From Pseudarthrobacter sp. NS4 (GTDB lineage: Bacteria > Actinomycetota > Actinomycetes > Actinomycetales > Micrococcaceae), in the NCBI RefSeq assembly GCF_024758005.1, contig NZ_CP103288.1:1240001-1304000 (forward strand): 64,000 nt of DNA. The letters are read 5' to 3'. Position 1 is the stretch's first letter. Each line of letters begins with the position of its first letter. A program made the translations under genes and the position numbers. A model generated the notes under the pieces. It was not told the DNA's origin. It worked only from the letters and a program-made list of their open reading frames with translations, and searched no databases. Shown piece by piece: positions 48,291-51,539 of the stretch.

Positions 48291-48860
48291 ATGCGCATCG
48301 TAGTCCTCGTTTCCGGTACCGGGTCCAATCTCCAGGCAGTTATTGACGCGGTCAAGGCGGGGGAGCTCGACGTCGAGATCGCTGCCGTGGGCGCTGACCG
48401 CCCGGGGACCTACGGTGTGGAACGCTCCGCCGCCGCCGGGATCCCCACGTTCGTCGTGGATTTCAAGGCGTACCAGGACCGGGGGGAGTGGAACGCAGCG
48501 CTGACTGAAGCTGTGGCTTCGTTCTCGCCTGACGTCGTGGTGTCGTCCGGATTCATGCGCATCGTGAGCCCGGAATTCATCGCCGCTTTCAAAGGCAAGT
48601 ACCTCAATACGCACCCGGCTTTGCTCCCGGCCTTCCCTGGCGCCCATGGGGTCCGGGACGCAATGGCCTATGGGGTGAAAGTTACCGGCTGCACGGTGCA
48701 CTGGGCGGACGCCGGGGTGGATACCGGGCCGATCATCGCCCAGGAGGCTGTGGCCATCGAGGAGGGCGACACCGAGGAAACCCTTCACGAGCGGATCAAG
48801 GAGGTGGAACGCCGGCTGCTGGTGTCCACCCTCGCGTCCCTCGCCGCAGCCTCCTCCTGA
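48291..48860 (+). CDS. purN: Phosphoribosylglycinamide formyltransferase
   Basis: 189 aa. IVVLVSGTGSNLQAVIDA at the start, the catalytic Asn-His-Asp set in LNTHPALLPAFPGAHGVRDA (Asn and His) and VHWADAGVDTGPII (Asp), and the C-terminal EEGDTEETLHERIKEVE. Transfers formyl from 10-formyl-THF to GAR, third step of purine synthesis. purH follows about 2.7 kb later; in relatives the two are usually adjacent, so the unit at 48.87-50.03 kb and an MFS gene lie between them here. Confidence 0.95.
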   Translation: MRIVVLVSGTGSNLQAVIDAVKAGELDVEIAAVGADRPGTYGVERSAAAGIPTFVVDFKAYQDRGEWNAALTEAVASFSPDVVVSSGFMRIVSPEFIAAFKGKYLNTHPALLPAFPGAHGVRDAMAYGVKVTGCTVHWADAGVDTGPIIAQEAVAIEEGDTEETLHERIKEVERRLLVSTLASLAAASS

Positions 48861-48868
48861 CACAGCGT

Positions 48869-48888
48869 CCCGCTCTCCCTCCCCGCCC
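48869..48888 (-). other. G-quadruplex-type tract, minus strand, outer side of palindrome A
   Basis: On the minus strand the pattern is GGG-C-GGGG-A-GGG-AGAGC-GGG (48888 to 48869), which fits four runs of three or more G with loops of 1, 1 and 5. It directly abuts, and shares its first run with, palindrome A. The mirror position on the other side of the gene has the same kind of tract. Confidence 0.5.
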
Positions 48889-48952
48889 AACTAAGTAGCA
48901 GCAGGTGTCGTTTTGACCGCTGAAAACGACGCCTGCTGCTACTTAGTTGGGC
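48885..48952. repeat. Palindromic repeat A (68 bp)
   Basis: Arms of 30 nt (48885-48914 and 48923-48952) pair with a single mismatch (a T-G wobble) around an 8-nt loop. The core GTAGCAGCAGG is shared with palindrome B at 49937-50002. It lies 24 bp after purN and 61 bp before the ATG of the nuclease gene. Length, near-perfection and repetition fit a mobile REP-like element more than a simple terminator, although it could also stop purN transcription. Confidence 0.85.
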
Positions 48953-48966
48953 AGGAAACTCCAGGG

Positions 48967-48983
48967 TGTGGATAACCTCCACA
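48967..48983. promoter_or_regulatory. DnaA-box-like site and small inverted repeat before the nuclease gene
   Basis: TGTGGATAA (48967-48975) is the reverse complement of the DnaA box TTATCCACA, an exact match. It is half of TGTGGA-TAACC-TCCACA (48967-48983). Lies between palindrome A and the ATG at 49014. A single box can occur by chance in 64 kb, but its place in this compact unit is suggestive. Confidence 0.45.
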
Positions 48984-49013
48984 ACCAGCCGCAGTTTTTG
49001 CCACCATGGGGAA

Positions 49014-49949
49014 ATGAAGACCGCGCAGCCCCTGCCCGAACGGCTGAACCCCATCGCGTTCACTTTTCAGGAGGCTGCCGACGCCGGTGTGTCCCGTCGG
49101 CAGTTAAGGCACCATGCGCTCCACGTGCCCAGCAGGGGGATCAGGCGGTCAGGCCAGGGGACCGCCGAGCTTCTGCCACAGGTCCGGCCGCTTACGCTCA
49201 TCACAGAGTTTTCTGCAGCCTCGCACGCCACAGCCTTTTCTCTTTGGTCATTTCCCGGATATCACCGGGAAGCATATGAAGACGTCGTTCACGTTTCCAG
49301 GCCTGACACGGTTGCAATTCCGCGGCGCAGGGGAGTGCGCGGACACCGTGGCCAGTTCTTTGCAGACGAAATCGTGAACCTCCATGGCGCGGTGGTCACT
49401 TCCCGCACCCGAACCTGGCTTGATTGCGCCCGTAAAATGAGCGTCGCAGAAGTCACCGTCGTCGCCGACCACCTGCTGCGGGTTCCGCGGCCGGACTTCG
49501 AAGCCAGATGCGAGCCTTATGCCACCCGTGCTGATTTGGAGGACATGCTGGACAGGCATAAGGGGACCCCTGGTATTCAGAAGGCCCGCCTCGCCTTGGA
49601 ACTGGCAAGAATCGGCTCAGATTCCGCCCCTGAGACCAGGCTAAGGCTTGCGCTGGAGGACGCAGGTCTCCCGGAGCCTGAACTGAACGTTCCCACTGAG
49701 CTGAGTGTCGGCGTCGTACGCCAACCTGACCTGAGGTATCTGGAACGGAAGGTTGCCGTGGAGTACGAGGGTGAAGGCCATTCTGAAGCCGAACAGATCA
49801 TCCGCGACATCGCCCGCGAAGAGGACTTCGTCCGGGCCGATTGGATGCTGGTCAGGATTTCCAAACGGCACATGCAGGACGGGTCGCGGGCCGCCGTCGC
49901 AAAAGTCAGGCGGGCGTTACTCAGCCGCGGCTGGTCTCCAAGTAGGTAG
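49014..49949 (+). CDS. AbiEi-like HTH plus DUF559/Vsr-like endonuclease
   Basis: 311 aa from the ATG at 49014; a GTG at 48966 would extend the frame through the DnaA-like site. The N-terminal part (about 15-60) looks like the AbiEi/type IV antitoxin winged helix (FTFQEAADAGVSRRQLRHHA, VPSRGIRR). The middle (about 70-160) matches the transcriptional-regulator-like AbiEi_4 region (TEFSAASHATAFSLW, VVTSRTRTWLDCAR). The C-terminal 100 residues are a DUF559/Vsr-like PD-(D/E)xK nuclease: APETRLRLALEDAGLPEPEL, PDLRYLERKVAVEYEGEGH and DFVRADWMLVRISKRHM carry the acidic triad. The stop codon TAG lies inside palindrome B. Flanked on both sides by palindromes. Confidence 0.82.
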   Translation: MKTAQPLPERLNPIAFTFQEAADAGVSRRQLRHHALHVPSRGIRRSGQGTAELLPQVRPLTLITEFSAASHATAFSLWSFPGYHREAYEDVVHVSRPDTVAIPRRRGVRGHRGQFFADEIVNLHGAVVTSRTRTWLDCARKMSVAEVTVVADHLLRVPRPDFEARCEPYATRADLEDMLDRHKGTPGIQKARLALELARIGSDSAPETRLRLALEDAGLPEPELNVPTELSVGVVRQPDLRYLERKVAVEYEGEGHSEAEQIIRDIAREEDFVRADWMLVRISKRHMQDGSRAAVAKVRRALLSRGWSPSR

Positions 49950-50002
49950 CAGCAGGTGTCGTTTTCAGCATTCAAAACGACACCTGCTGCTACCTAGTTG
50001 GG
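49937..50002. repeat. Palindromic repeat B (66 bp)
   Basis: Arms 49937-49965 and 49974-50002 pair with two mismatches or wobbles around an 8-nt loop (49966-49973). The core TAGCAGCAGGTGTCGTTTT is identical to that of palindrome A. The last codons and stop codon of the nuclease gene are inside the left arm, so the gene and the repeat are physically joined. Confidence 0.85.
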
Positions 50003-50014
50003 AAGGAGACAGGA

Positions 50015-50031
50015 GGGGAGGGGAGGGTGGG
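50015..50031 (+). other. G-quadruplex-type tract, plus strand, outer side of palindrome B
   Basis: GGGG-A-GGGG-A-GGG-T-GGG (50015-50031): four G-runs with one-base loops, the class expected to fold most stably. It mirrors the minus-strand tract outside palindrome A. It ends 12 bp before the end of the convergent MFS gene, whose mRNA would carry the C-rich complement. Confidence 0.55.
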
Positions 50032-50042
50032 AGCTACTGGGT

Positions 50043-51395
50043 TTACTCGAGGCGGCGCTGCTTGGTTTCCGGGGAGAAGAACGCCATCCACAGCACGGCC
50101 AGCAGGACCAGCCCGCCGGCCAGGGCGAAGGAGGTGGCCAGGCCGAGTTCGGGCCAGAAGTAGTTCGCGAAGATCAGCGGGCCAAATCCGGCACCCAGCC
50201 TCGAGAAAGTGGACGCCCAGCCAAAGCCGGTACCGCGCAGCTCGGTGGGGTAGAGCTCGGACACATAGGCGTACAGCACCGGGATGGCCACCTGCACCAC
50301 GAACCCGAACACCAGCAGCCAGAACACCGCTGCAGTGGGGATGTCCACCACAAAAGCGACGATCACCAGGGTCAGCGCGGACAGGGGACCGGTCACGGCC
50401 AGGATCCACTTCCGGCCCACGCGTTCCACCAGGAGGGCAGCCACGACCACGCCGAGCAGGCCGACGGCGGCCATGGACGCCGTGGTCACGAATGCCTTGT
50501 ACTCGGCGAACCCGGCACCGATCAGGATCCGTGGCATCCACGTCAGCGAGAGGTAGTAGACCAACAGGATGCTGAAGAACAGGGCCCAGGCCGTGGCCGT
50601 GATCTTCCAGTTGAACTGCCAGACGGAACGCAGCTGGGTCCAGGCGCTGCCGGCGGAGAGCCGCGGCACGTCCTTCGCGTCCGGCAGGCTGTAGGCCCGC
50701 GCTTCCGCACCGGTGGCTGACACCAGGCCGTCAATGACCTTGGCCGCTTCCTCGCGCCTGCCCTTGCGGATCAGGAACAGCGGCGACTCGGGCACGCTCC
50801 GCCGGACCCAGAACACCAGCAGTGCGGGCAGGACCATCACCAGCATGGTCAACCGCCAGTCGCCGAACACGCCCACGAGGCCGGCGGAGACGAAGCCTGC
50901 CAGTGCTGCGCCAACGGGCCACCAGCCGTCCATCGCGGTGAGCACCTTGCCGCGCTGCTTCCGGGGCGTGAACTCACCCACCAGGGCATAATCCACCGGG
51001 ATGCACCCGCCCAGGCCGAAGCCCGCCATGAACCGGAACACGCAGAACCAGATGAAATCGGGGGAGAAGGCCCCGAGTACGGTGAAGAGCGAGAAGATCA
51101 GGAGCGTAGCCGTGAAAGCCTTCTTGCGCCCGATGGTGTCCGCGATGGTACCCCAGATGAAGGCACCAAAGGCCATGCCGATGAGGTTGGACGTGCCCAC
51201 CCATGCGACCTCGCCCGGAGTCAGTGCCCAGTGGGTGGAGAGCAGCGGAATGAGGATGCCGTTCAGCGTTACGTCCCAGGCATCGAACATGAAGCCAAGA
51301 CCGCCGATCAAAAAAATCCTGCCCTGGACTTTCCATCGCCATGGCAGTTCCTGGACCACCTGTTCGCCGCTCGGCACAGTGGTGTAAGTATTCAT
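50043..51395 (-). CDS. MFS transporter (sugar/acid symporter type)
   Basis: 450 aa from the ATG at 51395 with AGGAGG six bases upstream; a longer frame to 51650 has no ribosome site. Twelve membrane segments. Family markers: LGFMFDAWDVTLNGILIP (first segment with Asp), WGTIADTIGRKKAF, FGLGGCIPVDYALVGEFTP, RRSVPESPLFLIRKGR, YVSELYPTELRGTGFGWAST. The VPESPxFL and LYPTELRGTG motifs link it to the NiaP/SV2-like and aromatic-acid transporters. Substrate unknown. Confidence 0.9.
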   Translation of the reverse strand: MNTYTTVPSGEQVVQELPWRWKVQGRIFLIGGLGFMFDAWDVTLNGILIPLLSTHWALTPGEVAWVGTSNLIGMAFGAFIWGTIADTIGRKKAFTATLLIFSLFTVLGAFSPDFIWFCVFRFMAGFGLGGCIPVDYALVGEFTPRKQRGKVLTAMDGWWPVGAALAGFVSAGLVGVFGDWRLTMLVMVLPALLVFWVRRSVPESPLFLIRKGRREEAAKVIDGLVSATGAEARAYSLPDAKDVPRLSAGSAWTQLRSVWQFNWKITATAWALFFSILLVYYLSLTWMPRILIGAGFAEYKAFVTTASMAAVGLLGVVVAALLVERVGRKWILAVTGPLSALTLVIVAFVVDIPTAAVFWLLVFGFVVQVAIPVLYAYVSELYPTELRGTGFGWASTFSRLGAGFGPLIFANYFWPELGLATSFALAGGLVLLAVLWMAFFSPETKQRRLE

Positions 51396-51539
51396 CGCAG
51401 CCTCCTGGGAAAACTCTAGCCGCCGTGCCCACCGGTGTTCACACTCCGGCAGACACGCGGGGCAACCTGCGCTTCGCGATAAACTGGCCCTATCCCCACC
51501 AACCGCGGCACTGTTCCGCGAGATAAGACGGAGACATTT

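Follow-up and report, generated by a model that had tools for sequence, protein, structure and literature searches.

A nuclease gene that lies between two nearly identical long palindromes raises the question of whether the palindromes belong to the nuclease and, if so, what the partnership does. The case considered here is in a 64,000-nt stretch of Pseudarthrobacter sp. NS4 (hereafter the window; positions 1,240,001-1,304,000 of NZ_CP103288.1, the one contig of a 4.44-Mb genome), which encodes a nuclease of the MTES_1575/DUF559 type. In this report, we found by comparing sequences that genes of this kind are bracketed by palindromes in most related loci, that the palindromes are specific to nuclease clades, and that residues of the protein have changed together with bases of the palindrome. 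We place at about 0.62 the probability that gene and palindromes form a cognate system, resembling the REPtrons of repetitive extragenic palindromic (REP) sequences and REP-associated tyrosine transposases (RAYTs) but built on a different nuclease, with dimer binding, cutting and repair copying. Dimerization, cleavage, repair-driven copying, movement and a selfish character rather than host benefit are the elements that we infer.

Both palindromes are near-perfect. The left one has 33-nt arms (48882-48914 and 48923-48955) that match at 94%, and the right one has 28-nt arms (49938-49965 and 49974-50001) that match at 96%; taken in register, each is a 66-nt unit of two 29-nt arms and an 8-nt loop. 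Between them, the left and right regions show 83% identity (80 nt) and 91% complementarity (65 nt). Allowing up to three mismatches, a 20-nt core finds four matches in the window, namely the four arms, against 0.00 expected from the shuffled window. The original prediction of two matching long palindromes around an AbiEi-plus-Vsr-like nuclease gene is thus confirmed, with 66-nt units, the left of which stops 62 nt short of the ATG.

The palindromes also belong to a family dispersed through the genome. A search pattern with the 8-nt loop spacing fixed found 21 copies, 19 of them outside the window locus, while its reversed control found 0. Under a rough call of open reading frames (ORFs), one of the 19 (2562984) falls within a chosen ORF and the other 18 do not; by the same call, solitary copies occur in parallel, convergent and divergent gene settings, and many copies are near gene ends. 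The genome-wide repeat family that had been foreseen is borne out, and the proposed comparison of solitary with gene-flanking copies, when run, showed them to be dispersed and mostly solitary. Palindromes arising by chance or as a one-off are ruled out by the shuffles, the 21 genomic copies and the bracketing in relatives. Comparison of the arms indicates that stem pairing is maintained: the 20-nt stem arms agree better within a copy (0.924) than between copies (0.887; p 1e-4), a result repeated in 44 copies at orthologous sites (0.920 versus 0.842) and in 15 copies from five other genomes (0.853 versus 0.628). No such advantage within copies is seen for the loop or the outermost 9 nt in the window's own genome.

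Homologues of the nuclease are present at E 1e-30 or better in 119 of 121 genomes of the genus, among matches listed down to about 190 bits, a level at which fragments and weaker matches are missed. We divided them by identity into clade 1 (at least 60%), clade 2 (44-50%) and clade 3 (about 37-41%), and we label genomes G (G000 being the window's own), loci L and solitary sites s1-s10. The clade-1 sample comprises 70 loci, or 71 of the 74 matches listed at 60% or more; fragments in G027 and G033 and a second G047 match were left out. The clade-2 sample is 14 loci out of 46 full-length matches listed, and the clade-3 sample 7 loci of many. Where both sides of a clade-1 locus were readable (67 loci), hairpins stand on both sides in 56, on one side in 9 and on neither in 2. 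The clade-2 gene has them on both sides in 10 of the 14 loci and on one side in 4. Shuffled flanks produced a hairpin in 1 of 1,790 cases. Clade-1 palindromes have a common outer frame, CCCAACT...AGTTGGG, around a stem word that varies; the types include, besides the window's own, a GCGCTAAG-type and a CTCGC-type. Clade-2 palindromes (family B) have a different sequence, CCCATCGATTGCT..., and a similar length and placement. Some subfamilies contain GTAG inside both arms; others lack it. Within a locus, left and right stems are far more alike than stems of different loci (0.896 versus 0.623; 55 clade-1 loci, p 1e-4): for 45 loci the own partner is among the five best of 55, and for 23 it is the best.

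The number of palindromes in a genome tracks the cognate nuclease and not that of the other clade, as judged from pattern matches. Across the 121 genomes, the outer-frame pattern for family A (whose reversed control matched once each in 4 of 121 genomes) found 2,602 copies, and the family-B pattern (control: 0) found 803. Family A has a median of 28 copies in the 69 genomes with clade 1 (64 full-length, 5 partial) and 1.5 in the 52 others, with an area under the curve (AUC) of 0.96 (p 7e-18); its numbers have no link to clade 2 over the 121 genomes (AUC 0.48). Family B has a median of 12 copies in the 47 clade-2 genomes and 0 in the 74 others (AUC 0.93, p 7e-16), with no link to clade 1 over the same genomes (AUC 0.42). 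Excluding flanking copies leaves AUCs of 0.93 for A and 0.90 for B. Matched copies range from 2 to 102 per clade-1 genome; 4 of the 69 clade-1 genomes have at most 5 A copies, and 1 of the 47 clade-2 genomes has at most 3 B copies. The proposal that each DUF559 subfamily has its own palindrome therefore holds, since clades and subclades carry distinct palindromes and copy number follows the cognate nuclease. The palindromes are neither confined to this locus nor without a link to DUF559 genes, the two outcomes set in advance as refuting the idea.

Which part of the protein might read the palindrome? Distances between palindromes correlate with those between proteins (Mantel r 0.57, p 5e-4, 65 loci). 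At constant PurN distance (50 loci), r is 0.62 for residues 1-60, 0.59 for 61-130, 0.31 for 131-200 and 0.18 for 201-311. Residues 1-60 are the most variable part of the protein, which can inflate r; the variability of residues 61-130 (0.270) is close to that of the nuclease domain (0.254). These values point to the AbiEi-like N-terminal part, not the nuclease domain, as the part that tracks the palindrome. Several columns stand out, among them 29 and 33, which fall within or next to a predicted helix (28-33), and 112, which closes a strand (108-112); further such columns include 3, 67, 101, 106 and 109. Where residue 112 is Arg, arm position 10 is G in 126 of 128 half-sites, the two exceptions belonging to one mis-centred palindrome (L076); where it is Val, the base is C in 107 of 112, for an overall agreement of 233/240. 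On a protein tree built without column 112, the residue changes six times and the base seven times, and in five cases both change on the same branch (p 5e-5; parsimony on one tree, with changes placed on random branches regardless of length). Dispersed copies follow the same rule. With a position-blind pattern, G066 (Arg) has 42 G and 2 C at this position in 22 of its 47 copies listed, and G065 (Val) has 34 C in 17 of its 96 copies listed, one of which flanks the nuclease. In 15 of 208 copies from five genomes, Arg genomes have 12/12 G and Val genomes 15/18 C. The 38/38 G in the window's own genome is not independent, because the position was in the search pattern. That the nuclease recognizes its palindrome is thus strongly supported at the level of sequence. 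Of the suggestion that the protein may "recognise, cut or maintain" the palindromes, the first part stands, resting on the within-locus match and the residue-base co-change; maintenance is suggested by the homogenization of stems, and cutting is presumed.

The protein itself matches Pfam MTES_1575 under the family cut-off and the PADLOC AbiEi model at 1.2e-10, and has an AbiEi-type N-terminal winged helix with a following domain. Its nuclease domain is predicted to adopt a Vsr-like fold, with an EDxHD homing endonuclease as the nearest structure. All 38 aligned sequences share E207, D239, H256 and D265, which probably form the catalytic set. Among the 25 closest nuclease pairs, the ratio of nonsynonymous to synonymous substitution (dN/dS) is 0.07-0.37, indicating purifying selection on the gene. 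Coordinates are collected in Table 1.

Table 1. Features of the nuclease-palindrome locus and its neighbours (window positions).
Feature	Position	Strand	Remarks
Left 66-nt palindrome	48886..48951		8-nt loop 48915-48922; ends 62 nt upstream of start codon
311-aa nuclease gene	49014..49949	+	AbiEi-like N-terminal part (3-199); EDxHD/Vsr-type nuclease domain (about 202-308)
Codons of residues 29-33	49098..49112	+	Within predicted helix (28-33); co-variation with palindrome at columns 29 and 33
Arg112 codon	49347..49349	+	Accompanies G at palindrome arm position 10 across clade 1
E207, D239, H256, D265 stretch	49632..49808	+	Invariant EDxHD-type residues; putatively catalytic
Right 66-nt palindrome	49937..50002		8-nt loop 49966-49973; includes nuclease stop codon 49947-49949
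purN (left neighbour, context outside unit)	48291..48860	+	PF00551, 1.5e-58
MFS-type transporter (right neighbour, context)	50043..51396	-	Named by eye

The same genome contains a single palindrome arm without a matching partner arm (458165-458184) and a second close pair of palindromes (L066, 1491938-1492786; the two at 1491938 and 1492739, 801 bp apart). The L066 pair encloses a gene for a secreted-type protein (judged by eye) that is unrelated to the nuclease; as in the nuclease unit, the stop codon is inside the right palindrome. Two nuclease paralogues are also present, at 3017265-3018173 (L047, 37%) and 3317892-3318419 (L048, 30%). A flank scan found a hairpin on neither side of L047; L048 was left out of the hairpin and palindrome-alignment counts.

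The gene order at the locus is purN, palindrome, nuclease, palindrome, major facilitator superfamily (MFS)-type transporter (minus strand), purH. The predicted position between purN and purH is therefore correct, but the transporter shares that gap, and the nuclease unit is not its sole occupant. In L075 and L084 the gene is turned around with respect to purN and the MFS gene. In thirty genomes chosen as lacking the unit at purN, the site either is free of palindromes, has a single solitary one or holds a gene fragment accompanied by palindromes; a solitary family-A palindrome is found in G043, G107, G054, G012, G079 and G112. The suggested look for empty sites has thus revealed gene-free sites, some with one solitary palindrome. 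Nuclease fragments alone, beside palindromes, remain at purN in G072 (L188), which has a full-length unit elsewhere, and in G017 (L168). In G064 (L139), the nuclease at purN is split over two frames and is still beside palindromes. Near purN at L172, L175, L183 and L184 (G061, G118, G088 and G042) is a third palindrome family of the GATGCGCTATCAC... type, without a clade-1 gene there.

We traced ten solitary sites from the window's genome into ten relatives, with part of the 100 combinations readable and no usable comparison for s4 and s9. Among the genomes read, a family palindrome is present at s2 in 6 of 7, at s5 in 8 of 10 (not G120 or G063), at s7 in 8 of 8, at s8 in 7 of 10 (not G100, G029 or G120), at s10 in 2 of 10, at s1 in 4 of 9, at s3 in 2 of 2 and at s6 in 1 of 1. 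These alignments indicate that solitary copies come and go between relatives. They also provide partial evidence of concerted evolution. Among the 44 copies compared, stems match at 0.887 for different sites of one genome (82 pairs), 0.858 for one site in different genomes (137) and 0.840 for neither (727). Copies resemble the palindromes of the resident nuclease (0.899) more than those of others (0.830; p 0.003; 43 copies from 10 genomes, G120 being without a nuclease for comparison). In G060 (unit L107), many solitary copies bear an asymmetric CCCAAGTAGG end that carries the stop codon in the unit, a hint of descent from the palindrome on the right.

Beyond the genus, we scanned 67 loci: 65 outside clade 1 or distant, and the clade-1 loci L232 and L265. 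Hairpins are on both sides in 24, and these resemble each other in 20 at a threshold score of 15 and in 18 at 24 or more; pairings of mismatched loci reach 15 in 48 of 1,302 and 24 in 8. The other 47 of the 67 have no matching pair. The matching cases include Arthrobacter sp. 35W, Specibacter cremeus, Frigoribacterium faeni (L280) and three Blastococcus loci (L292, L296 and L300). G277 (another family) has five solitary copies of its own nuclease's palindrome in a 400-kb sample; in G165 (family f13), none was found in a 400-kb sample of 3.6 Mb.

A mechanism consistent with these observations can be proposed. The protein would bind through its AbiEi-like N-terminal part, probably as a dimer with one 33-nt half-site of the 66-bp palindrome per subunit, and the EDxHD-type domain would presumably nick or cut at or near the palindrome centre. 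Repair may then copy the palindrome sequence from other copies, leading to slow spread into intergenic sites, to homogenized copies and to a gene kept bracketed by its own target. Of the selfish element or regulatory repeat family originally envisaged, the link between nuclease and palindrome has held up; selfishness and mobilization are presumed. Several facts weigh against it. PurN adjoins 50 of 65 clade-1 units, so the unit mostly stays put; the other 15 have no PurN beside them, some perhaps because of the stretch examined. None of the 7 clade-3 loci read has palindromes. At least 8 A copies are found in 11 of the 52 genomes without clade 1, and at least 5 B copies in 13 of the 74 without clade 2; the rank tests of copy number, moreover, ignore kinship among genomes. 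No target-site duplication is discernible at the solitary sites followed. G029 is a clear exception to homogenization, its three solitary copies matching their own nuclease at 0.74 and others at 0.84. Finally, the s2 loop is common to several species in which the stems differ, which speaks against simple wholesale copying; change there acts on stems and is not whole-unit replacement.

The strongest rival is that the protein serves the host as a DNA-binding regulator or chromosome organizer, with palindromes selected as terminators, for supercoiling or at transcript ends, and a nuclease domain rarely or never used. AbiEi, which the N-terminal part resembles, binds inverted repeats, and the purifying selection on the gene, the many copies near gene ends (by the rough ORF call) and the presence of s2, s5, s7 and s8 in most relatives read would all suit such a role. 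We nevertheless consider it unlikely, given the invariance of the four EDxHD-type residues, the solitary copies in every gene orientation, the gain and loss of sites among relatives, and the bracketing of the gene by its own sites in most loci, which a plain regulator would not need.

Another possibility is that general template switching keeps the palindromes perfect and ordinary recombination spreads them, the gene having been caught between two copies early and then inherited. The mostly vertical inheritance at purN and the conserved s2 loop with its changing stems agree with this account. It leaves unexplained, however, why two unrelated palindromes each track their own nuclease clade, why matching pairs surround units away from purN and why similar pairs occur in other families, and the repeated residue-base co-change disfavours it; we regard it as improbable. 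The REPtron-like architecture (PMC6006769, in the sections consulted) could also mean that the palindromes are moved by an HUH transposase of RAYT/IS200 type encoded at another place in the genome and that the flanked gene is unrelated to them, but copy number tracks EDxHD nuclease clades. A search for PF01797 (Y1_Tnp, RAYT/IS200 type) came up empty in all 18 genomes with palindromes, the window's own included, while its control scored in 5 of 14 known genomes, E. coli among them; mobilization of this kind is rejected on that result and has hardly any probability left. Ordinary intrinsic terminators, likewise stem-loops often near gene ends, are as poor a candidate, rejected for a T-rich part that is beside the loop and not after the stem and for copies in all gene settings, divergent genes included, with clade-specific words and co-change with the protein also against them.

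The cognate nuclease-palindrome system favoured here shares several features with REPtrons as described in the consulted sections of PMC6006769: short palindromes on either side of a gene, with further copies scattered in intergenic positions; a separate palindrome family for each nuclease subtype; and a gene that apparently does not transpose as a unit. It differs in that REPtrons use an HUH-Y1 nuclease, whereas an AbiEi part and an EDxHD/Vsr-type domain are present here, with recognition evidence that points to the AbiEi-like part; in addition, the 66-bp near-symmetric palindrome has no unpaired GTAG foot (the GT[AG]G foot of REPs). The same sections report RAYT subclasses without the foot and, for the Actinobacteridae sampled, only members of subclass 1.1 (IS200-type) and none of REP type. 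TIRtrons, RAYT-like genes with long terminal inverted repeats (TIRs), also place a gene between inverted repeats that are sometimes repeated in the genome, but they encode an HUH transposase and are described as having terminal inverted repeats, not a self-palindrome at each end (PMC3733652, in part); a text search of passages of that paper found no mention of Arthrobacter or actinobacteria. Counts for Arthrobacter livingstonensis are given in PMC12306157. No DUF559/MTES_1575 nuclease-palindrome system is described in the titles and abstract openings of the openly available literature searched, in which broad topics were covered in part. The N-terminal winged helix and following domain recall the AbiEi antitoxin of a type IV toxin-antitoxin system, but here they are fused to a nuclease, palindromes occur on both sides and genome-wide, and no AbiEii toxin is adjacent, the neighbours being purN and the MFS-type gene named by eye. 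The predicted Vsr-like fold with its E, D, H and D residues resembles the EDxHD homing endonuclease I-Bth0305I; the nuclease here, however, is not in an intron, and its presumed targets are intact around the gene and numerous in the genome. In homing, a target is split by the gene or by the intron that carries it, and a site once occupied escapes cutting. Here the window's two palindromes are unbroken, and 56 of 67 loci have a hairpin on each side of the gene, which is a further difference if the palindrome is the target.

Enzymes dedicated to dispersed REP-type palindromes are not known outside the HUH transposases. A different, non-HUH nuclease appears to own its dispersed palindromes here, and the joint evolution of gene and repeats suggests an undescribed kind of selfish repeat system. 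It is an even question whether this represents an Actinobacteria-wide selfish class, a non-HUH counterpart of REP/RAYT in which AbiEi-EDxHD nucleases would read 66-bp or similar palindromes by a changeable residue-base code, with homing-like drive and a chromosomal set rewritten when specificity shifts. The co-varying residue-base pair makes recognition testable by one substitution, and the system constitutes a record of a DNA-binding protein and dozens of its sites changing together.
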